Part shown: one piece after another, positions 21,551 through 33,765 of the stretch
Numbering within the stretch: the first letter of the stretch is position 1
Layout of the letters: each line of letters opens with the position of its first letter
Source: an uncultured Pseudomonadota bacterium
Lineage (GTDB): Bacteria; Desulfobacterota; Desulfobulbia; Desulfobulbales; Desulfurivibrionaceae
DNA length: 39,370 nt
Reading direction: 5' to 3'
Assembly: GCA_937868185.1 (NCBI GenBank)
Contig: CALMMG010000088.1
Span: 1 to 39,370 of the forward strand
Notes under the pieces: model-generated
Seen by the model: the letters and a program-made list of their open reading frames with translations, nothing else
Database searches by the model: none
Told to the model about the DNA's origin: nothing
Position numbers and translations under genes: made by a program

Positions 21551-22874
21551 AATTCCGAAGATTACCATCATCGGCGGCGGCCTCGCGGGAAGCGAGGCCG
21601 CCTGGCAAGCCGCCCAGCGCGGTTGCCAGGTAACGCTGCACGAAATGAAACCGGTACGCTTCAGCCCGGCCCATGAGTTGCCGCAGTTGGCGGAACTGGT
21701 TTGCAGCAACTCCCTGCGCTCCGCCGATGTCTCTTCCGCCGTGGGTTTGCTTAAAGAAGAGATGCGCCGCCTGGGCTCCCTGATCATGACCGCCGCCGAC
21801 CAGACCCAGGTTCCGGCCGGCCGAGCCCTGGCCGTGGACCGCGAACTTTTTGCCAAGTTTGTCACCGAAAAAATCGAAAGCCATCCGGCCATCACCGTGG
21901 TCCGAGAGGAAGTCACCGAACTTCCCCCTGCCGGGAACTGGCCGCTCATCCTAGCCTCCGGCCCGCTCACCTCGGCACCGCTTGCCGCAGCTCTGGCCCA
22001 ACTCACTGGGGAAGAGCATCTGGCCTTTTACGACGCCATCGCCCCCATCGTTGCCGCCGACTCCCTGGACATGTCCATCATCTACCGGGCCTCCCGCTAT
22101 GATGACGGGCCGGGCGACTATCTGAACTGCCCCATGAACCGCGACGAATACGCAACCTTTATCGAGGCCATGCGTTCCGCAGACAAGGTGCCGCTCAAGG
22201 AATTCGAGGAACAAAAATACTTTGAAGGGTGTCTTCCCATCGAGGTTATGATGGAACGCGGCGAGAATACCCTCCGCTTCGGCCCCATGAAACCGGTGGG
22301 ATTGCCCGACCCGCGTACCGGCCGCGATCCGTACGCCGTGGTCCAGCTTCGCATGGAGAAGAAAGATGGTCTGCTCTACAACTTGGTGGGCTTTCAGACC
22401 AAGCTGACCTACAAAGCCCAGCAGGAAGTGTTCCGGTTGATTCCGGGCATGGCCCAGGCAGAATTCGCCCGGCTCGGCAGCATTCACCGCAACACCTTTG
22501 TTTGCGGACCCAAGGTGCTGCTCCCCAGCCTGCAAGTAAAAAAACGACCCGATCTCCTGCTGGCCGGGCAAATAACCGGAGTGGAGGGGTATGTGGAGTC
22601 CACGGCCATGGGTTTACTGGCCGGGATCAACGCGGTGCGTCTGGCCCATGAACAACCGGCTCTTGACCTACCCAACAATACCGCCATGGGCGCTTTAGTC
22701 GGTCACCTGACCAACACCGACCCCAAACATTTCCAGCCCTCCAACATCAACTTCGGCCTTTTCCCGGCCTGGGAGACGAAGCTCCCCAAAAAACTGCGAG
22801 GACAACACCGTGCAGAAACAGCCCTGGCTTCCCTCAAACAGTTCTGCGACGCAGAAAAGCTGGAACCGGCTTAA
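21522..22874 (+). CDS. trmFO: tRNA (uracil-5-)-methyltransferase TrmFO (folate/FAD-dependent)
   Basis: TrmFO makes 5-methyluridine at position 54 of tRNA with methylenetetrahydrofolate and FADH2, unlike the SAM enzyme TrmA. The protein is about 450 residues. The N-terminal FAD-binding motif is [16 protein letters not shown], followed by the family signatures [10 protein letters not shown] and [14 protein letters not shown] (the latter holding the Cys implicated in catalysis in Bacillus) and, near the end, the second nucleotide-binding segment [18 protein letters not shown] place the start at the ATG 21522, which overlaps adk by 29 bases. A TTG three codons later in the KIPK context or one codon earlier is possible, and no clear ribosome binding site decides it. 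Confidence 0.95.
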
Positions 22875-25800
22875 GTATGACCGGCCCCTGCTTTGCCTTC
22901 TCCTGCTCCTCGGCCTGCTGATCCTCCCCGTGGCCCAGTCTTCCGCCGCCCCACGCCTCCCCCTGCAGCAGCTCGACATCGCCTTTGATCTTGTTGGCCA
23001 CCGGCTCACCGGCACATCACGCATCACCATCCCTGCCCAAACCGCAATCACCATCTCTCTGGCAGAGTTAGAGATCACAAAACTAGAGCTGGACGGCGCC
23101 CCGCTCCAGGCCATAGAGCAAGTGATTATCCCAACAACACCACGAGAGCAGCAGGTGGCCATCAGTTTTCACAAGACTGTGACAAACAATCAGACAGACG
23201 GACTCATCGACAAGACTGGCATCGCTCTCACCGGAACCTGGCATCCACGACTGGACACCGACTGCCTCCATGAGTTGACCGCCACCATTCCCAAACAATT
23301 TGAGGCCATCTCCGAGGCCGAGGAGATCAGCAGCACAGTCGCCGGAAATATTCGCACCGTCCGCTTCCGCTTCAACCATCCCGCAGACAACCTCAACTTC
23401 GTGGCCGGACCCTACGCGGTGGAGCAGCAGCCCATCGGCCCCGGCCAGACCCTGTATTCCTATTTCTTTGCAGAAGACCGGGAACTGGCGGCGGAATACC
23501 GCAAAAAAACGCTTGGGTACCTCAAGCGCTACCAGGAGCTGCTCGGTCCCTATCCCTACAAGCGTTTCAGCATCGTGGAAAACCGGCTCCCCACCGGCTA
23601 CGCCATGCCCACCTTCACCCTGCTCGGCCAAGCCGTGGTCCGGCTGCCCTTTATCACCGAGACCTCCCTTGGCCATGAGGTGCTACACAGCTGGTTTGGC
23701 AACGCGGTTGGCGTGGAAGGGAGCCAGGGCAATTGGTGCGAGGGGCTAACCACCTACCTGGCCGATCAATCTTTTGCCGCGGACAAAGGGAGCGATGCTG
23801 GATTCAGAAAGCAACAGCTTATCACCTACCAAAGCTATGTGGGGCAGGACAACACCTTGACCCTCAAGGATTTCAGCGGGGCAGACAGCCATCTTACTTC
23901 TGGCAACAAAGCGGCGCGGGCAGTGGGCTACGACAAGGGGAGTATGCTCTTCCACATGCTGTTTCGGGAAATCGGCGACGCGCCCTTTTACGCCGGGCTG
24001 CGGGATTTTTACGCCCGCTTCCGGAATCAACAGGCGAGCTGGCAAGATCTGGCCGCAAGTTTCAACACAAGCTCCCACCAGAATCTTGAACCGTTTTTCC
24101 GCCAATGGCTCAGCCGCGCCGATCTGCCCCGCCTGGAAATCACCACAGGCAGCCTTAAGGAAAAAGAGGGCCAGATCGAACTTGGTCTCACCATCAAGCA
24201 GCTCCAGGAAAAACCCTACCGCCTGAGATTGCCCCTGGATATCGTCACCATCAAGGGCAAGGAACGACGCGAAGTAACCCTTTCCGAATCCGAGACCAAA
24301 CTGAACATCAGCCTGCAGGATTATCCCTCGCAGGTGACTGCTGATCCGGACTACGATCTGATGCGGACCCTGGCCCCCGAAGAACTGCCGCCCACCTGGT
24401 CGCGCTTCCTCGGGGCTCGCGAAAGGCTGGCCATTGTCCCGGAAGGAGACGACCGGCAGCTCTATACGCCGTTCATCGAACTCCTCGCCTCCATGGGTTG
24501 CCCGGTCAAGACCGCCAGCGAGGCGACAGACAAGGATCTGGCGGGCAAGAGTGTGCTTTTCCTCGGCACCGACAGCCAATTGGCCCGCTCCATCTTTGCC
24601 GGCCAGCCCCAGCCCGCCCCAGGCTTTATTCTAGAAGTGCGAGAAAACCCCTTAGCGCCAGACCAGGTTGCGGTGCTGATCGCTTCCGCCAGCGCTCCGG
24701 AAACAGCGGCGGCTACGCCCAAGCTCGCCCATTATGGCAAATACAGTACGCTGCATTTCAACCTGGGCCGGGTGGACCGAAAAACCATCACCGATACCGC
24801 GCAGGGCATACACCTGACCATCGACACCCCGCCCATGGGCATCGCCCTGCCCCAGGCCCTCTCCTTTGCCGCGATCATGGAACAGATAGCTGACAAGCGG
24901 GTGGTGTATGTGGGGGAAAGCCACACCCGCAATGAGGACCATCTCCTGCAACTTCGGGTGATCCGGGCACTGTTCGCCCAGAACCCCAACCTTGCCATCG
25001 GCATGGAGATGTTCAGCCGCGAGGCGCAGCCCGTTCTTGACCGGTATGTGGCCGGGGAGCTGAGCGAGAAAGAATTCCTGAAGCAATCGGGATATTTTTC
25101 CAAGTGGAGCTTTGATTACCGGCTGTACCGGGAGATCATCAACTTTGCCCGCAGCCACCATCTGCCCATCGTGGCCCTCAACCAGGAAAAGGAGCTTGTC
25201 AGCAAGGTCTTCAAGGAGGGGGCTGCCGCCCTGACCGCCGAGGAACTTGCCAAGATTCCACCCGACCGCGATCTGACCATCCCCGGCTATCGGGAGCGGA
25301 TCACCGAGGTCTTTGCCATGCACGGTGAGCACGGCGGGCCGGAACAGATCAACGGCTTTTTCCAAGCCCAGGCCATTTGGGACGAAACCATGGCCGAATC
25401 CGTAACCACATTCCTCAATGCCCACCCAGAACGCCGGATGGTGGTACTGGCCGGACAGGGGCATACCGACAGAAGGACCGCTATTCCGCCCCGAGTCGCC
25501 CGCCGCCTGCCGACCATCCGCCAGGCCGTTATCCTGAACAGCGAAAACGAGGCGCTTGACCAGACCGAGGCAGACTACCTGATCTTTTCCAAACCCGTCG
25601 AGCTACCCCCAGCTGCGGTGCTCGGGGTGATGCTGGCCAACACCGCCGATGGGCCACGGGTGGAAGGATTGTCCGAAAAGTCCAAGGCCGGAACGGCAGG
25701 CATCCGGGAGAAAGATGTGATCCTTGCCCTGGATGATGAACCGGTGGCCACCATTGACGACCTAAAGATCATCCTGCTCGGCACAGAAACCGGCAAACCG

Positions 25801-25878
25801 GTGACGGTGCAGATCAAGCGGAAATCAGGGAGATGGTTCAAGCAGGAGACGGTTCTTTCCATTCCGGTTGTGTTGTAG
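22810..25878 (+). CDS. M1-type peptidase/ChaN-like/PDZ fusion protein
   Basis: A 1022-residue exported or membrane-anchored protein combining three modules. After an N-terminal hydrophobic segment (about residues 27-47) comes an M1-type metallopeptidase region (about 50-440). Its zinc site HEVLH is at 289-293, with Glu311 in NWCEG and Tyr374 in GYDKG. The aminopeptidase GAMEN motif is replaced by TGYAMPTF (262-269). Residues about 530-660 form an unassigned alpha/beta linker domain. Residues about 683-910 match the ChaN/haem-binding-uptake family ([39 protein letters not shown]). A PDZ domain (about 932-1015) closes the protein. The start is a GTG inside trmFO with GAGG upstream; no other in-frame start precedes the hydrophobic segment. 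Function is unknown; peptide or haem/metal handling at the membrane is a guess. Confidence 0.85.
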
Positions 25879-26233
25879 CAGGGCTTGCTAAAATCACTTT
25901 GATTCCCAAGCAGTTTCAGCAGCCAGATGAATACGCTACTCTTCTGTTCATTTCTTTGCTTGCCCAAAGAAACGAACCAAAGAAAAGGCCCCCTGTGTCT
26001 CTTGTCCCGCCGTTGGCGGGATGCCCTGCGCTCCTCGATGCTGCCGGGGCTTTGCAAACTCGCTGCGCTCAAACAGTGCAAAGCCCTTTTTCGGCCGCCT
26101 CTCCGGTGCTCGGCGGCGGGCCAATGGGATTTTAACAAAGGCCTTCGTTGCGCTTGCTTACTAACCAGAGAAATCTTTTCTTTTGGCCTTACCCCTGCTC
26201 CGGGCTATAATGGGCAAAAATCAAGGACCACCC
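25879..26233. other. Intergenic region after the M1-ChaN-PDZ gene
   Basis: This 355-base stretch is dominated by three consecutive hairpins (25951-26091), entered separately as a repeat. The last ends in a T-run and could terminate the preceding gene. Open frames that cross it (25927-26625 and others) show no protein features. The final bases before 26234 carry AAGGA, the ribosome binding site of the next gene. Confidence 0.6.
25951..26091 (+). repeat. Hairpin-rich intergenic element, probably a dispersed repeat
   Basis: Three stems follow each other. TTTCTTTG (25951-25958) pairs with CAAAGAAA (25965-25972). TCCCGCC (26005-26011) pairs with GGCGGGA (26015-26021). GGGCTTTGCA (26047-26056) pairs with TGCAAAGCCC (26077-26086), and TTTTT follows. 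The sequence around the first stem (TTTCTTTGCTTGCCCAAAGA) resembles an element I recall from intergenic regions of many proteobacteria; this is from memory and needs a search. Only one copy is in this window. The last stem can also act as a terminator. Confidence 0.6.
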
Positions 26234-27049: not shown

Positions 27050-29101
27050 ATGAAGACCTTACTCTCCAGGCCCGAGAGGGCAGATTATCTGCCAGCCCTG
27101 CTCAAACGCTTCCTCCTCACCTACCTGCCGCTGCTCCTAATCCTGCTTGCCATTGCCAGCGCTTTGTATACCACCGATCAGCAGGCCCGCCGCCGGACCT
27201 TTGGGCAGCAGGAAATCCTCAGCATCAACCAGCAACATAAGATAATCACCAACGATATCAAGGGGATCAGCAGCGATGTGCAGGTGCTGGCGGGTTACTA
27301 TCCTCTTCATGCCGCCCACAATGAGTTGGCTGCTGTTACCGACGAATTCCGCATCTTTGCCCTCCACAAGAAAATCTATGACCAGGTACGCTTTCTGGAT
27401 GCAAACGGCATGGAAAAAATCCGGATCAACTACAAGGCGGGCAGCCCATCCATAGTGCCGCCTGAAGCATTGCAGGACAAAAGCAGGCGCTATTATTTTA
27501 AAGACTCCATTTCTCTGGGGCCTAACGAGATATTTGTCTCCCCCTGCGACCTCAATATCGAACAGGGCATCATTGAACAGCCCCTGAAGCCCATGATCCG
27601 CTTCGGCGCTCCGGTCTTTGCCCAGGACGGCAGCCGCCTTGGCATCGTGATGCTCAACTACCTGGCCCAGGAAATCCTGGATGATATTAAAGGACTGAAG
27701 GGAAACGCCGTCGACCGGATCATGCTGGTCAACCGTGAAGGTTACTGGCTCAAGGCCCCCTCCCCGGAGGACGAGTGGGGCTTTATGTTCCCTGAAAAAA
27801 AAGAACGCAGCTTTGCCCTCCGTTTTCCGCAGGCCTGGCAGAAGATTTCCGCCAATGATTCAGGCCAGTTCATCGAAGAGGCGGGCATGTTCACCTTTAC
27901 CACGATCAGACCGCTCAACCAAGGTCTGCTCTCCAGTACCGGTTCTGCCGAGGCGTTCGCCGCAAGCAGCAAACGCCTCCGTGCCGATGAATACTCGTGG
28001 AAAATTATCTCCTTTGTTCCGACCGGGGAACTGGCGCACCAACTCCAGCCATACAAAACAGCCTCCCTGCTGGTTAGCCTTATCCTTTCCCTGCTGCTCG
28101 GCCTTGGCTGCTGGATTGCCGCCGAAAGCAACCTGAAACGGACCATGGCCGAGGCCGCCCTCAAGGAAAATGAAGAAAAGTTCCGAACCGTGGCCGAGTT
28201 CACCTACGACTGGGAAACTTGGCTGGGGCCGGAAGGCTACTACCTGTATACCTCCCCGTCCTGCGAACGTATTACCGGATTTCCGGCCAAGGAATTTTAT
28301 GCAGACCCCGGCCTGTATCTTTCCCTCGTTCATCCGGAAGACAGGGAACTTTTCCGCAACCACCTGCGAGATGACATTGACTCGGATAGGGTCTGCGAGA
28401 TGGATTTTCGCATCATCACCAAAAGCGGCCAGGTAAAATGGATTGCCCACAACTGCCGCCCGGTTTTCGCGGAAACCGGACAACAGTTAGGCCGACGCTC
28501 CAGCAACCGGGATGTCACGCAACGGGCTATGGCGGAACTGCGCCTCAAGGAGATGGCCAGCCACGACACCCTAACCGGGCTGCCCAACCGAAATCTCCTC
28601 CTTGACCGACTGACGCAGGGCCTGGCCAGGGCAAAACGTGGCAACACCAGAATGGCCGTCCTCTTCCTCGATCTTGACCACTTTAAGGAGATCAACGATA
28701 GTCTGGGGCATGACGCTGGAGACCAGGTTTTGCAGACCACGGCCAAGCGGATGAGCGCGCAGTTGCGGGAAGAAGATACCGTGGCCAGGATGGGGGGCGA
28801 CGAGTTCGTCATCATTATTCAGGATCTGCGGGAAGGAAAGGAAGCAACCGCTATCGCGGAAAAACTCCTCACCGCCATCCGGGAACCGATCCGCATTGTG
28901 ATTGACGGCGCAGACTTGAAACGGGTCGTGGGGTCCAGCATTGGGATCAGCATCTTTCCCGAAGACGGCACCGATGCGAACACCCTGCTCAGCAAGGCGG
29001 ACAGCGCCATGTACCAGCACAAACAGGCGGGCCGAAACAAGAGTACAGCAGCAAGAGCCGAGGAGAACGGTGGTCCGCAGGATCCCTCCAGCCAAAGATG
29101 A
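27050..29101 (+). CDS. Diguanylate cyclase with Cache-like sensor and PAS domain
   Basis: This makes cyclic di-GMP from two GTP at the inner membrane. The 683-residue protein has a membrane segment at about residues 19-40, a large periplasmic sensor region of the double-Cache type (about 42-335, with VRFLDANGMEKIRINY) and a second membrane segment (about 338-357). A PAS domain (about 372-490) and a GGDEF domain (about 503-665) follow. The catalytic GGDEF is intact at 582-586, and the inhibitory I-site RxxD (R573-D576) lies five residues before it, so product inhibition is likely. It starts three bases after the UDG gene and ends five bases before the convergent epmA. The ligand is unknown. 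Confidence 0.93.
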   Translation: MKTLLSRPERADYLPALLKRFLLTYLPLLLILLAIASALYTTDQQARRRTFGQQEILSINQQHKIITNDIKGISSDVQVLAGYYPLHAAHNELAAVTDEFRIFALHKKIYDQVRFLDANGMEKIRINYKAGSPSIVPPEALQDKSRRYYFKDSISLGPNEIFVSPCDLNIEQGIIEQPLKPMIRFGAPVFAQDGSRLGIVMLNYLAQEILDDIKGLKGNAVDRIMLVNREGYWLKAPSPEDEWGFMFPEKKERSFALRFPQAWQKISANDSGQFIEEAGMFTFTTIRPLNQGLLSSTGSAEAFAASSKRLRADEYSWKIISFVPTGELAHQLQPYKTASLLVSLILSLLLGLGCWIAAESNLKRTMAEAALKENEEKFRTVAEFTYDWETWLGPEGYYLYTSPSCERITGFPAKEFYADPGLYLSLVHPEDRELFRNHLRDDIDSDRVCEMDFRIITKSGQVKWIAHNCRPVFAETGQQLGRRSSNRDVTQRAMAELRLKEMASHDTLTGLPNRNLLLDRLTQGLARAKRGNTRMAVLFLDLDHFKEINDSLGHDAGDQVLQTTAKRMSAQLREEDTVARMGGDEFVIIIQDLREGKEATAIAEKLLTAIREPIRIVIDGADLKRVVGSSIGISIFPEDGTDANTLLSKADSAMYQHKQAGRNKSTAARAEENGGPQDPSSQR

Positions 29102-29106
29102 CAGGG

Positions 29107-30009
29107 CTATAGAGACTCCGGCGGAAAAGCCACCACCTGATCAATATTGTCCGCCCCACCAAAGAGCATAACCAGCCGGTCCACCCCTAAGGCGATGCCC
29201 GCAGCCGGGGGCATGTTTGCAAGAGTATCAAGAAACAGCTCCGGCATGGGGCCAAGGTTGCGGCCCTGCAGCCGGATCATCTCCTGCTCCGCCAGAAACC
29301 TGGCCCGCTGCTCCGCAGGATCGACCAACTCGGAAAAACCGTTGGCCAACTCCAAGCCGGCCACATACAGTTCGAAGCGCTCGGCCACCGCTGGATCGGT
29401 CGAAGAGAGCCGGGCAAGCGCCCCCAATATGGCAGGGTAATCGTAGAGAAAAGTGGGGGTGGCCATGCCCAGATGCGGCTCCACATACTCCACCAGCATC
29501 TCATCGAATCGGTCCTGACTGAGCGCCTCCTCCACCGTGCAGGGCGCGTAGCGGCGGAAGGCCTCGGCCACGGTAATCCGCTCCCATGCCGGGGCAAGAT
29601 CGATCCTGCACCCCTGCCATGCCAGCATCCCGTTCTTGCCCATGGCCGCAGCCAGATGACGCAGCAGCGCCTCGCAATCTGCCATCAGATCGCGGTAGTC
29701 GCTGCCAGCCCCGTACCACTCCAGCATGGTGAACTCGGGCAGGTGACGGTCGCCGCGCTCAGCCTTACGGAAGCATTTGCAGAGCTGGAAAATCTTGGGG
29801 ATGCCTGCGGCCAGCAGCCGTTTCATGCAGAGCTCCGGCGAGGTTTGCAGAAACCAACCCTCGCTGGTCAGGGGCACGATATGGGCTTCCGGGGCAGGGG
29901 CAGGGATACGGATGGGGGTTTCGACCTCAAGGTAATCTCGGTCGACAAAGAAGGTGCGCAGAGCTTGAATGAGAACGGCCCGCAATTGCAGGCCGTGAAT
30001 GGGAATCAT
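29107..30009 (-). CDS. epmA: EF-P lysine ligase EpmA (GenX/YjeA/PoxA family)
   Basis: EpmA activates (R)-beta-lysine and attaches it to a conserved lysine of elongation factor P. The 300-residue protein is a class II aminoacyl-tRNA-synthetase catalytic domain without the tRNA-binding domain of LysRS. Visible motifs are motif 1 (FVDRDYLEVETPI), motif 2 (FQLCKCFRKAERGDRHLPEFTMLEWY) and motif 3 (GIALGVDRLVMLFGG). It directly follows efp on the same strand, 59 bases away, and that neighbour supports the assignment. EpmB, the lysine 2,3-aminomutase that makes beta-lysine, is not in the window. The gene is tightly convergent with the diguanylate cyclase gene (five bases between the stops). Confidence 0.95.
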   Translation of the reverse strand: MIPIHGLQLRAVLIQALRTFFVDRDYLEVETPIRIPAPAPEAHIVPLTSEGWFLQTSPELCMKRLLAAGIPKIFQLCKCFRKAERGDRHLPEFTMLEWYGAGSDYRDLMADCEALLRHLAAAMGKNGMLAWQGCRIDLAPAWERITVAEAFRRYAPCTVEEALSQDRFDEMLVEYVEPHLGMATPTFLYDYPAILGALARLSSTDPAVAERFELYVAGLELANGFSELVDPAEQRARFLAEQEMIRLQGRNLGPMPELFLDTLANMPPAAGIALGVDRLVMLFGGADNIDQVVAFPPESL

Positions 30010-31125: not shown

Positions 31126-33765
31126 TCACCCCAAGCTTTTGCTCACCACCTCGTACACATCACGGGACAACGAGGGGCTGGCTCCAATTCGCTCAAGCTG
31201 GGATCGCATCAGGCCACGCCTGGTCGCATCGTAACGTGCTCCCCTTCCGAGTCGTGCCGCCAGACGGGCGGCAATCTGCGGATTGAGGGAGTCAAGGGCA
31301 AGAACCTGCTCGGTCAAAAAATGATAGCCCCGGCCGGACAGTTCGTGGAAACAAAGCGGGTTACTTGCGGCAAAGGAGCCCACCAGGGCACGAACCTTAT
31401 TGGGATTCTTCAACTGAAAGGCCGGATGATGCATAAGCGCTTGCACCTCGGCCAGGGTTTCCGGTAGCGGGGCGGTGGCCTGTACCGCAAACCACTTGTC
31501 CAGGACCAGGGAATCCCCCTGCCATTGGTGATAAAAATCACCAATAACCTGCTGCCGCTCCGGCCGGGCGGAATGGACCAGGGCGACAAAGGCGGCCATC
31601 TGGTCGGTCATGTTGTCGGCCCCGCGAAACTGGGCCAGAGCGAGCTGGATAGCCGCATCGTCTTCAAGGCTGACGAGATAGGTAAGACAAAGATTGCGAA
31701 ACGCTCTCTGCCCTGCCAGCTCAGGCGCATAGCGGTATGGGCCGCTGACCCGGTTGGCCTGATACCCTTGCTCCCACAGGGGTCGCAGGGAATGGGCCAG
31801 GGCCTGCCGGGCAAAGGTGCGGGCAGCATGAATCGCCTCGACATCCACCACCTCCATCTGCTCGGCCAGGTACTCCTCCGAGGGCAGGGTGAGCAGCAGG
31901 GCGAGGAAGGCTTTGTCGCCTCCGGTTTCTTCGCCAAGCAAGCGACCGCAAGCCGCGACAAACCTTTGGTCAAACTGCAGAGGACGGCTATGCCTGAAAT
32001 CCTCCACCAGCCCCAAAAGCAAGCGGCTGGCCAGACACTGCCCCGCCTCCCATCGGTTGAAGGGATCCTGGTCATGGCGGAAAAGAAAGAGCAGCTCTTC
32101 CTCGTCACAGGCATAATCAACCTTCAGCGGCGCGGAGAAATTACGCAGGATCGAGAGACGCGGTTGTTCCTTCACCGCGCTGAAGCGGATGGTTTCCTCG
32201 GACCCGCGCAGCTCAAAGAGGCCGCGTTCCGCTTCCCTCTGCCGCTCCGCACAGGTCAGCACCATCTCGTTGCCCTGGCCATCGAGCAAACCAAGGGACA
32301 CCGGGATATGAAGCGGTTCCTTTTCCAACTGCCCAGGAGTCGGTGGCGTGCTTTGCCCCAGGCTCAGGGTATAGGTCTGAGTCTGGCCGTCATACACCCC
32401 CCGCACCATAAGACGAGGGGTGCCAGCTTGGGTGTACCACCGCTTGAACTGGGTCAGATCACGGCCGGAGACCTCAGCCATGGCCTGGACAAAATCATCG
32501 GTGGTGGCAGCCTGGCCGTCATAGCGCGTAAGATACAAGGCCAGCCCCTGGCGGAACAACTCCCCACCCAACAGGATGTGCAGCATCCGGATGATCTCGG
32601 CCCCTTTCTCATAGATGGTGACGGTGTAGAAGTTGTTGATCTCCATGAAGGAATCGGGCCGCACCGGATGGGCCATGGGGCCGTTGTCCTCGGGAAACTG
32701 CACGTTGCGCAGGAGCCGGACATCGTGGATACGCTTGACTGCGGCCGACACCTGATCTCCGGTGAACTGCTGGTCGCGGAATACGGTGAGACCTTCCTTG
32801 AGGCTCAACTGAAACCAGTCCCTACAGGTGACCCGGTTACCGGTCCAGTTATGGAAATACTCGTGGGCAATGACCGCCTCGATCCCCTCGTAATCAGCAT
32901 CCGTGGCAGTATCGGGCCGGGCCAGCACATACTTGGAGTTGAAGACATTGAGCCCCTTGTTCTCCATGGCGCCCATGTTGAAATCGTCCACCGCCACAAT
33001 CATGTACTGGTCGAGATCGTATTCCAGGCCAAAGGTCTCCTCATCCCAACGCATGGCCTTGATGAGCGAAGCCATGGCATGCGCGCATTTGTCCCGGTTA
33101 TGGGCCTGCACATAGATCTCCAGAGCAACCGGACGACCGGAACGGGTGATAAAGGTATCCGCGATCTTGACCAGATTGCCGGCAACCATGGCAAAGAGAT
33201 AGGAGGGTTTGGGAAAGGGGTCCTGCCAACGGGCGTAATGGCGACCTTCGGGTAGCGGGCCAGCCTCGATCAGGTTGCCGTTGGCCAGGAGTACCGGATA
33301 GCGCTCTTGCTCTGCGCTGATGGTGACCTCGTAGCGGGCCAGCACATCGGGCCGGTCGAGAAAATAGGTGATCTTGCGGAACCCCTCGGCCTCGCACTGG
33401 GTGCAGAAATTGGAGCTGGAACGGTATAACCCATCGAGAGAGGTATTGCTTTGGGGATAGAGTTCGGTTTCGATCACAAGCACGAACCGCTCCGGCACCG
33501 TCGGGATGGTGAGGGTTTCCTCGTCGAGCCGATACTGGTCCGGGGTGAGGGCAACAGAGTCCAGGGTGATACCCTTGAGCACCAGCATCCTCCCGTGGAG
33601 GACAAGAGGGGCCGCAACCGCGTCCTGGTCATTCCGGCGGCAAAGCAGGCGGGAGCAGACCCGGGCCCGCTCCTCGAAGAGATCCACCGCAAGCGCCACC
33701 TCTTCAATCACATAAGCCGGCGGGCGGTAATCCTTGAGCAGGATGGTTTTGGGCTGGGCGTCCAT
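31126..33765 (-). CDS. pepN: Aminopeptidase N (M1 family)
   Basis: PepN removes N-terminal residues from peptides in the cytoplasm. The 879-residue protein is of normal length for the gammaproteobacterial-type PepN. The N-terminal beta domain begins at once (no signal peptide). The exopeptidase motif GAMEN is at 265-269. The zinc motif HEYFHNWTGN starts at 301, with the third ligand Glu324 in LSLKEGLTV. A helical C-terminal domain follows (about 550-879). The stop of the MltD-like gene lies 14 bases upstream of its ATG, implying one transcript. A clear ribosome binding site is lacking, perhaps because of translational coupling. It is the second M1-type protein in this window. Confidence 0.97.
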   Translation of the reverse strand: MDAQPKTILLKDYRPPAYVIEEVALAVDLFEERARVCSRLLCRRNDQDAVAAPLVLHGRMLVLKGITLDSVALTPDQYRLDEETLTIPTVPERFVLVIETELYPQSNTSLDGLYRSSSNFCTQCEAEGFRKITYFLDRPDVLARYEVTISAEQERYPVLLANGNLIEAGPLPEGRHYARWQDPFPKPSYLFAMVAGNLVKIADTFITRSGRPVALEIYVQAHNRDKCAHAMASLIKAMRWDEETFGLEYDLDQYMIVAVDDFNMGAMENKGLNVFNSKYVLARPDTATDADYEGIEAVIAHEYFHNWTGNRVTCRDWFQLSLKEGLTVFRDQQFTGDQVSAAVKRIHDVRLLRNVQFPEDNGPMAHPVRPDSFMEINNFYTVTIYEKGAEIIRMLHILLGGELFRQGLALYLTRYDGQAATTDDFVQAMAEVSGRDLTQFKRWYTQAGTPRLMVRGVYDGQTQTYTLSLGQSTPPTPGQLEKEPLHIPVSLGLLDGQGNEMVLTCAERQREAERGLFELRGSEETIRFSAVKEQPRLSILRNFSAPLKVDYACDEEELLFLFRHDQDPFNRWEAGQCLASRLLLGLVEDFRHSRPLQFDQRFVAACGRLLGEETGGDKAFLALLLTLPSEEYLAEQMEVVDVEAIHAARTFARQALAHSLRPLWEQGYQANRVSGPYRYAPELAGQRAFRNLCLTYLVSLEDDAAIQLALAQFRGADNMTDQMAAFVALVHSARPERQQVIGDFYHQWQGDSLVLDKWFAVQATAPLPETLAEVQALMHHPAFQLKNPNKVRALVGSFAASNPLCFHELSGRGYHFLTEQVLALDSLNPQIAARLAARLGRGARYDATRRGLMRSQLERIGASPSLSRDVYEVVSKSLG

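Follow-up and report, generated by a model that had tools for sequence, protein, structure and literature searches.

Within a contig from an uncultured bacterium of the Desulfurivibrionaceae (CALMMG010000088.1, assembly GCA_937868185.1), one gene encodes, in a single frame, domains I-III of an M1 metallopeptidase, an extra alpha/beta domain, a ChaN domain and a C-terminal PDZ domain. The stretch of DNA that was analyzed, called here the window, comprises 39,370 nucleotides of the forward strand, and the gene occupies its positions 22810-25878 on the plus strand. This M1-ChaN-PDZ architecture is widespread, common in some phyla, and sometimes located in a metal-transport operon. Based on the residues conserved in the family, we propose that the protein may be a periplasmic metallohydrolase with two sites, in which the ChaN domain is probably catalytic and not only a haem carrier, a reading to which we give an even chance. 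The architecture, the predicted folds, the conservation of both sets of residues and the gene linkage are directly supported; activity, substrate, metal, the ligand of the PDZ, the route of export and the direction of transport are inferred.

Architecture and distribution of the fusion protein

Searching Pfam, we identified three domains over their cut-offs: Peptidase_M1 (PF01433) at residues 288-433 (E-value (E) of 6.2e-15, 55.8 bits for a cut-off of 27.7), Cofac_haem_bdg/ChaN (PF04187) at residues 689-896 (E 4.8e-66, 223.2 bits, over the curated cut-off) and PDZ_2 at residues 937-1006 (E 2.2e-8, 34.7 bits for a cut-off of 27). The AlphaFold2 model of the whole protein, built on the alignment of 72 sequences described below, had a mean predicted local distance difference test score (pLDDT) of 89.5 and a predicted template modelling score of 0.83, and a second model restricted to residues 525-930 had a pLDDT of 92.7. 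With Foldseek, the N-terminal part matched M1 aminopeptidases (best E 1e-26); all 50 matches listed were titled M1-family peptidases and many of them aligned over about 500-560 columns. The 525-930 model retrieved first the ChaN structure 2g5g (E 5.1e-13, template modelling score 0.75 by target), followed by EreC, BcR135, RRSP, HopBA1 and PMT.

Combining these results, the protein can be divided into the following parts, all read from the plus strand. The M1 N-terminal beta domain (domain I) spans residues 50-220 (22957-23469; AlphaFold2, and Foldseek matches to M1 aminopeptidases with E about 1e-25), the M1 catalytic domain residues 221-445 (23470-24144; Pfam, AlphaFold2 and Foldseek) and the M1 beta domain III residues 446-512 (24145-24345; AlphaFold2, Foldseek and the alignment with a PepN-like protein of the same window). 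They are followed by the alpha/beta domain at residues 525-680 (24382-24849), which was delimited by AlphaFold2, has no Pfam match over the cut-off and gave no clear fold match in the Protein Data Bank when Foldseek was run with the 525-930 model, then by the ChaN domain of the Tiki/Ere superfamily at residues 689-896 (24874-25497; PF04187 and 2g5g) and by the PDZ domain at residues 937-1006 (25618-25827; PDZ_2). An earlier note on this DNA, made from the letters alone, had described M1, ChaN and PDZ modules fused in one exported protein and had suggested a Pfam search, a structure prediction and a survey of taxa. The fusion and the M1 and ChaN homologies were borne out by Pfam, and the M1 and ChaN folds by AlphaFold2 and Foldseek; the picture of three modules was incomplete, since the fourth domain, alpha/beta, sits between M1 and ChaN at about residues 525-680.

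The gene is one open frame of 1022 codons plus stop with a GTG start, preceded 7 bases upstream by a likely ribosome-binding site, GAGGA, read directly at 22798-22802. Its first 65 bases lie inside the 3' end of trmFO, whose stop ends at 22874. By eye, residues 1-47 (22810-22950) look like a signal sequence, with a basic stretch, a hydrophobic run and an Ala-rich segment; pLDDT is low at residues 1-26 and 39-45, and a regular expression for a lipobox matched none of the 72 homologues. The export proposed by the earlier note thus agrees with the N-terminus. The genome, whose assembly is fragmented (205 contigs, completeness 85.75, contamination 5.79), contains a single copy of the gene.

To describe the family, we scanned named genome contigs with a profile; at least 581 stretches encode a relative, and the best 80 were kept as loci. 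Going by the titles of their records, these best 80 are mostly from Deltaproteobacteria or Desulfobulbaceae and from Nitrospirae, with a few from Thiotrichaceae, Parabeggiatoa, Spirochaetes and Aquificota. The conservation alignment has 72 rows, the window protein and 71 of the 80 loci, after leaving out those in which the matched span is interrupted (L072, L078, L079, L103), those that begin inside the gene (L077, L104, L124) and those cut at the 3' end (L091, L119); the homologues are 33-80% identical to the window protein. The whole protein was also found in 11 of 16 genomes of the same genus, with fragments in three and no match in two, and 20 of 297 genomes in a phylum sample, the window genome included, have a match spanning the M1 to the PDZ part (starting at query residue 138 or earlier and ending at 1004 or later). 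The fusion occurs as well in records that bear the names of Desulfopila aestuarii DSM 18488, Desulfopila sp. IMCC35008 (complete chromosome) and Desulforhopalus sp. IMCC35007. The survey therefore describes an architecture common in some phyla, not a local oddity. A sequencing error joining separate genes, which the earlier note named as a way in which its reading could fail, is contradicted by these stop-free matches across genomes and loci: since they cover the whole length in 11 of the 16 same-genus genomes and the matched span is a single frame at 76 of the 80 loci, a fusion created by sequencing is very unlikely, and a frameshift or assembly fusion was rejected in view of the presence of one frame in many genomes.

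Two conserved sets of residues

The M1 catalytic domain carries the zinc site HExxH-x18-E, formed by HEVLH at residues 289-293 (23674-23688; the ligands H289 and H293, and E290) and by the third ligand E311 (23740-23742). Each of H289, E290, H293 and E311 is kept in 71 of the 72 rows, and Y374 (23929-23931), which aligns to the Tyr of the PepN-like protein, in all 72. At residues 262-267 (23593-23610), in the region of the GAMEN motif of M1 aminopeptidases, the sequence is TGYAMP, and in none of the 72 homologues does the alignment have a Glu at position 263, 265-268 or 270. A profile alignment with the PepN-like protein paired GAMEN to PTFTL and, counting from HExxH, GAMEN could instead pair to TGYAM; the window protein has no Glu in both pairings.

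Identity with an ordinary aminopeptidase N was rejected: the NCBIfam pepN equivalogs scored far under their cut-offs (40.4 bits for 718.2 with TIGR02414, 37.4 for 591.2 with TIGR02412), GAMEN is absent, and a separate PepN-like M1 gene in the same window (31126-33765, minus strand) carries GAMEN together with HEYFH. In aminopeptidase N, the helical domain IV forms a lid over the active site. This domain is absent in our models, in which the alpha/beta, ChaN and PDZ domains come after domain III. Because both the GAMEN Glu, the anchor of the N-terminus, and the domain IV lid are missing, an endopeptidase with an open cleft, or a peptidase with another specificity, is more likely for the M1 part than an aminopeptidase.

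The ChaN domain contains a second set of residues, E703-S-H705 (24916-24924), E733 (25006-25008), located 30 residues past E703, and H885 of the AGQGH motif (25462-25464), all present in 72 of 72 homologues. By motif, order and spacing of the Glu, these four residues are equivalent to the catalytic set of two Glu and two His (2Glu/2His) of the Tiki-superfamily hydrolases. According to passages of a study on RRSP, a Tiki-family endopeptidase with the same 30-residue spacing of its two Glu, mutation showed that all four residues are required for cleavage (PMC6254334), and an excerpt of another article attributes the Ere fold to ChaN (PMC7979712). The second His was present in every ChaN domain that we aligned, except in those that are cut or split (L049, L159). 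The motifs listed by the earlier note (HEVLH, E311, Y374, TGYAMP, GESH at 702-705 and AGQGH ending at H885) were all found at the residues it gave, and its view of an M1 zinc site without GAMEN, unlike that of an ordinary aminopeptidase, is supported.

Additional evidence on the ChaN site came from exchanged and split genes. Sixty regions fetched from the phylum-sample matches, and four loci obtained earlier, were scanned with profiles built from the alignment, so that the following counts rest on phylum-sample matches whose regions were fetched. At nine loci (L145, L146, L149, L150, L173, L176, L183, L187 and L188), the M1 module, again lacking GAMEN, continues into an M28 peptidase that takes the place of ChaN-PDZ in the fused protein; seven of the nine have a C-terminal PDZ, and Pfam confirmed M28 in three. 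At 29 other loci the M1 module stands alone, with a ChaN gene directly adjoining in eight. None of these 38 modules lacks any of the five M1 residues, and the 2Glu/2His set is likewise complete in the nine adjacent ChaN genes at the eight loci. Two pairs of loci (L146/L177 and L139/L190) are the same places fetched twice and were counted once, a contig-end fragment (L192) was left out of the 29, and L175 and L186, which are cut by contig ends, may be M28 fusions. A plasmid of Azoarcus sp. KH32C carries the two as separate genes that share 4 bases, ChaN-PDZ in one and M1 in the other, each with its set of residues complete.

Phylogenetic trees, for which every fifth row of the 72-row alignment was used and duplicates and short matches were left out, described the same exchanges. 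In the M1-domain tree (64 rows, for which the bootstrap had not settled), eight of the nine M28-fused modules group with five stand-alone ones in one clade (100/100), and another clade contains the 25 ChaN-fused modules with three stand-alone and one adjacent (99/97). In the ChaN-domain tree (36 rows), the ChaN proteins encoded by adjacent genes are apart from the others (97/85); this split and the adjacency indicate that the link between M1 and ChaN is present in two ChaN groups. The M28 fusions, for their part, show that a peptidase can take the position of ChaN. Since the full set of residues is kept and since M28 can stand in this position, the ChaN site is probably catalytic, and a second peptidase, or a hydrolase of the esterase type, is a likelier role for the domain than passive carriage of haem. 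The earlier note had suggested that it could bind haem or a metal; considering the invariant residues and the M28 found in its place in some relatives, the domain is not best read as a binder only.

Proposed function and transporter operon

At a minority of loci, the fusion gene lies between two transporter genes, a permease directly upstream, with weak matches to the PF07670 Gate family (E 0.0016 and 0.0004, under the Pfam cut-off), and a PF01545 cation-efflux (CDF) protein directly downstream. Of the nine best matches to this Gate protein in the phylum sample (E up to 3.6e-88, a cut of about 1e-88 chosen after the list was seen), eight lie directly upstream of an M1-ChaN-PDZ gene and the ninth is near a contig end; by eye, and among the places listed, which are not all of them, the weaker Gate matches are never near an M1 or ChaN match. 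The CDF subfamily, searched with a single query from an operon of the Gate/CDF kind and a threshold of 1e-60 fixed beforehand, was found in seven of the 297 genomes, and in all seven it is directly downstream of the M1-ChaN-PDZ gene or, in G065, fused to it. In G065 the CDF part joins the PDZ end at its own start methionine. The N-terminus of CDF proteins is cytoplasmic. A periplasmic PDZ running into it would be topologically odd, so that a sequencing error is possible.

Some observations concern these operons and their surroundings. At L147:4013-7948 (the same gene as L045), the frame runs from the PDZ into a whole cation-efflux transporter, a topologically odd arrangement that is either a real four-part fusion or the result of a sequencing error. 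Three genomes have a small gene resembling a response regulator after the CDF gene (L157:7337-7708, L158:3918-4274, L161:3852-4208), and two have an Hsp20-like gene before the Gate gene (L147:9320-9760, L159:1113-1553); both names were given by eye.

The mechanism that we propose is the following. The protein would be exported by the Sec system and remain soluble in the periplasm. Its M1 part (domains I-III) would act as a zinc peptidase, cleaving as an endopeptidase or with another specificity, and its ChaN part, with the complete 2Glu/2His, would constitute a second hydrolytic site, while the PDZ domain may present C-termini or exposed segments of the substrates. In the lineages with the Gate/CDF operon, the enzyme might be loaded in the periplasm with a divalent metal exported by the CDF protein, and either this metal or a product might be imported by the Gate permease. 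In animals, ZnT transporters supply metal to secreted zinc enzymes, and by analogy the CDF protein could supply the metal of this enzyme.

Several observations weigh against a two-site metallohydrolase. To our knowledge, no activity has been reported for any member of the family. The passages on RRSP report that this enzyme needs no metal, so that a role of metal in the ChaN domain becomes less likely, and describe PMT, of the same superfamily, as devoid of the 2Glu/2His set (PMC6254334). The M1 site is dispensable in places, as members of the window's own family show: L133 (301-3282) has none of the four zinc-site residues and kept those of ChaN, L143 and L154 retain ChaN-PDZ and little or nothing of the M1 catalytic domain, and L148 (2832-5660) and L195 (3411-6248) kept the ChaN residues, with PDZ, and have no recognizable M1 catalytic domain. 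Concerning the linkage, the fetched stretch has no directly adjoining ChaN gene at 21 of the 29 loci with a stand-alone M1 module, some of these stretches being cut by contig ends. The transporters are a minority context: among the 80 loci, Gate is upstream in 5 of the 70 with enough upstream sequence and CDF downstream in 3 of the 65 with enough downstream sequence, plus one partial, and at the thresholds applied neither this Gate nor this CDF subfamily was matched in the window genome.

The losses of the M1 site would fit the idea that both catalytic-looking domains are structural relics and the protein a periplasmic chaperone or adaptor in which the PDZ does the work. A gene cluster identified through one representative as a peptidyl-prolyl isomerase, which lies nearby at 5 of the 80 loci, is in line with this idea. 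We nevertheless consider it very improbable, for the M1 site is intact in 71 and the 2Glu/2His in 72 of the 72 rows, at identities to the window protein that go down to 33%.

A second explanation comes from the only solved relative in our profile search, the Campylobacter ChaN 2g5g (E 8.5e-18), which is also the closest fold. This protein binds haem, according to the title of the structure, and aligns with the same GExH, Glu and His, so that 2Glu/2His alone does not prove catalysis. The fusion protein could then serve in acquisition and salvage of haem and iron: M1 would clip haemoproteins, ChaN would take the freed haem, the PDZ would recruit partly unfolded cytochromes and the transporters would handle iron. 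Such a role would fit with the Gate and CDF transporters of a subset, with L119, the one locus where the fusion gene is preceded, at a distance of 4 bases, by the end of a cytochrome c3/c7-type gene, and with a passage reporting a ChaN-like lipoprotein that falls jointly with haem-import proteins in a Bacteroides strain (PMC10102347). It is made rather doubtful, without being negligible, by the lack of a lipobox in the 72 homologues, by an invariant 2Glu/2His that is not obviously needed for haem binding, and by the neighbour clusters identified (many clusters being unnamed), among which no TonB receptor or haem gene recurs.

Finally, the linkage to transporters, with the CDF subfamily adjacent or fused in all seven cases and the best Gate matches upstream in eight of nine, could mean that the protein is a sensor or a processing factor for the CDF and Gate transporters, or a buffer for periplasmic zinc or iron, its hydrolase folds being metal sites. 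We regard this role in metal homeostasis as unlikely: most loci examined do not have the Gate/CDF operon, and none of the identified neighbours of the window gene is a metal gene.

These neighbours are trmFO, adk and a UDG-type gene, and the window gene is outside a Gate/CDF operon. Neighbour clustering over the 80 loci, for which a simple open-reading-frame picker was used and some clusters were identified, gave no gene context common to the whole family; the largest cluster besides the family itself was present in 15 of 80. At L105:11290-12318 there is a gene for a double cyclophilin-FKBP peptidyl-prolyl isomerase, whose cluster is downstream of the fusion gene at 5 of the 80 loci. Elsewhere in the window, an interspersed repeat follows the gene at 25954-25988 (five copies in the genome at up to 3 mismatches, none for the reversed control), and we noted a GGDEF/PAS sensor protein (27050-29101, plus strand) and an EpmA-type EF-P lysine aminoacylase (29107-30009, minus strand).

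Significance and comparison with known systems

The two-site hydrolase may be part of something larger, although we hold this to be a speculative and improbable extension: a periplasmic machine that dismantles proteins in cytochrome-rich anaerobes, with capture by the PDZ, cleavage by M1 and a Tiki-type site, recovery of haem or metal by ChaN and purpose-built Gate/CDF transporters. If it were true, the ChaN family would contain metal-loaded proteases and not haem carriers only. Among the passages and structures seen, the haem-uptake label of ChaN rests on one Campylobacter structure, and ChaN domains share their fold and residues of catalytic type with erythromycin esterases and Tiki-family endopeptidases. 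ChaN and a zinc-peptidase module are tied by fusion, gene adjacency and the exchange with M28, and one lineage adds a cation transporter of its own; with these ties, a soluble protein from bacteria that can be cultivated offers a direct test of whether ChaN is a haem carrier or a hydrolase. More generally, the family represents a widespread and uncharacterized system in phyla where sulfur and iron cyclers are numerous.

In the open-licence literature searched, we found no description of an M1-ChaN-PDZ, M1-M28/ChaN or Gate/CDF-M1 combination, which is weak evidence of absence and agrees with the earlier note, whose author knew of no characterized protein of this kind. A phage origin was rejected, PHROGs giving two matches only (4.6e-10 for the M1 part and 0.0004 for the PDZ part); a viral fold search gave three matches with E < 0.001, an M1-like protein of Tupanvirus, an M61-like protein of Indivirus and one unnamed protein.

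Another candidate was the M61 glycyl aminopeptidase, in which an M1-like zinc site is joined to a C-terminal PDZ. It was rejected because no M61 Pfam model matched at E up to 0.1, and it differs from the window protein, which has ChaN and alpha/beta domains in between. The closest families that we encountered are those of a survey of bacterial PDZ proteins, passages of which list ChaN-PDZ ("Haem-binding uptake") and M28-PDZ as uncharacterized, and name PM61 in a legend (PMC6411480). They resemble the present family in joining ChaN or M28 to PDZ; an M1 module is not mentioned in these passages, and the terms "peptidase M1" and "peptidase family M1" are absent from the main text (PMC6411480).

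With the M1 metallopeptidases (aminopeptidase N and LTA4 hydrolase, PF01433), the window protein shares the fold of domains I-III, the HExxH-x18-E motif and the position of the Tyr, but it differs in having neither the GAMEN Glu nor the helical domain IV and in being fused to ChaN and PDZ. The ChaN protein of Campylobacter jejuni (2g5g, PF04187) has the same fold and motifs. It is a single-domain lipoprotein, whereas the ChaN domain described here is located inside a soluble four-domain protein that has no lipobox. As for the Tiki/Ere hydrolases EreC, BcR135, RRSP and HopBA1, their partners differ and the activity of the window protein is predicted, but both have in common the fold and the complete 2Glu/2His set.

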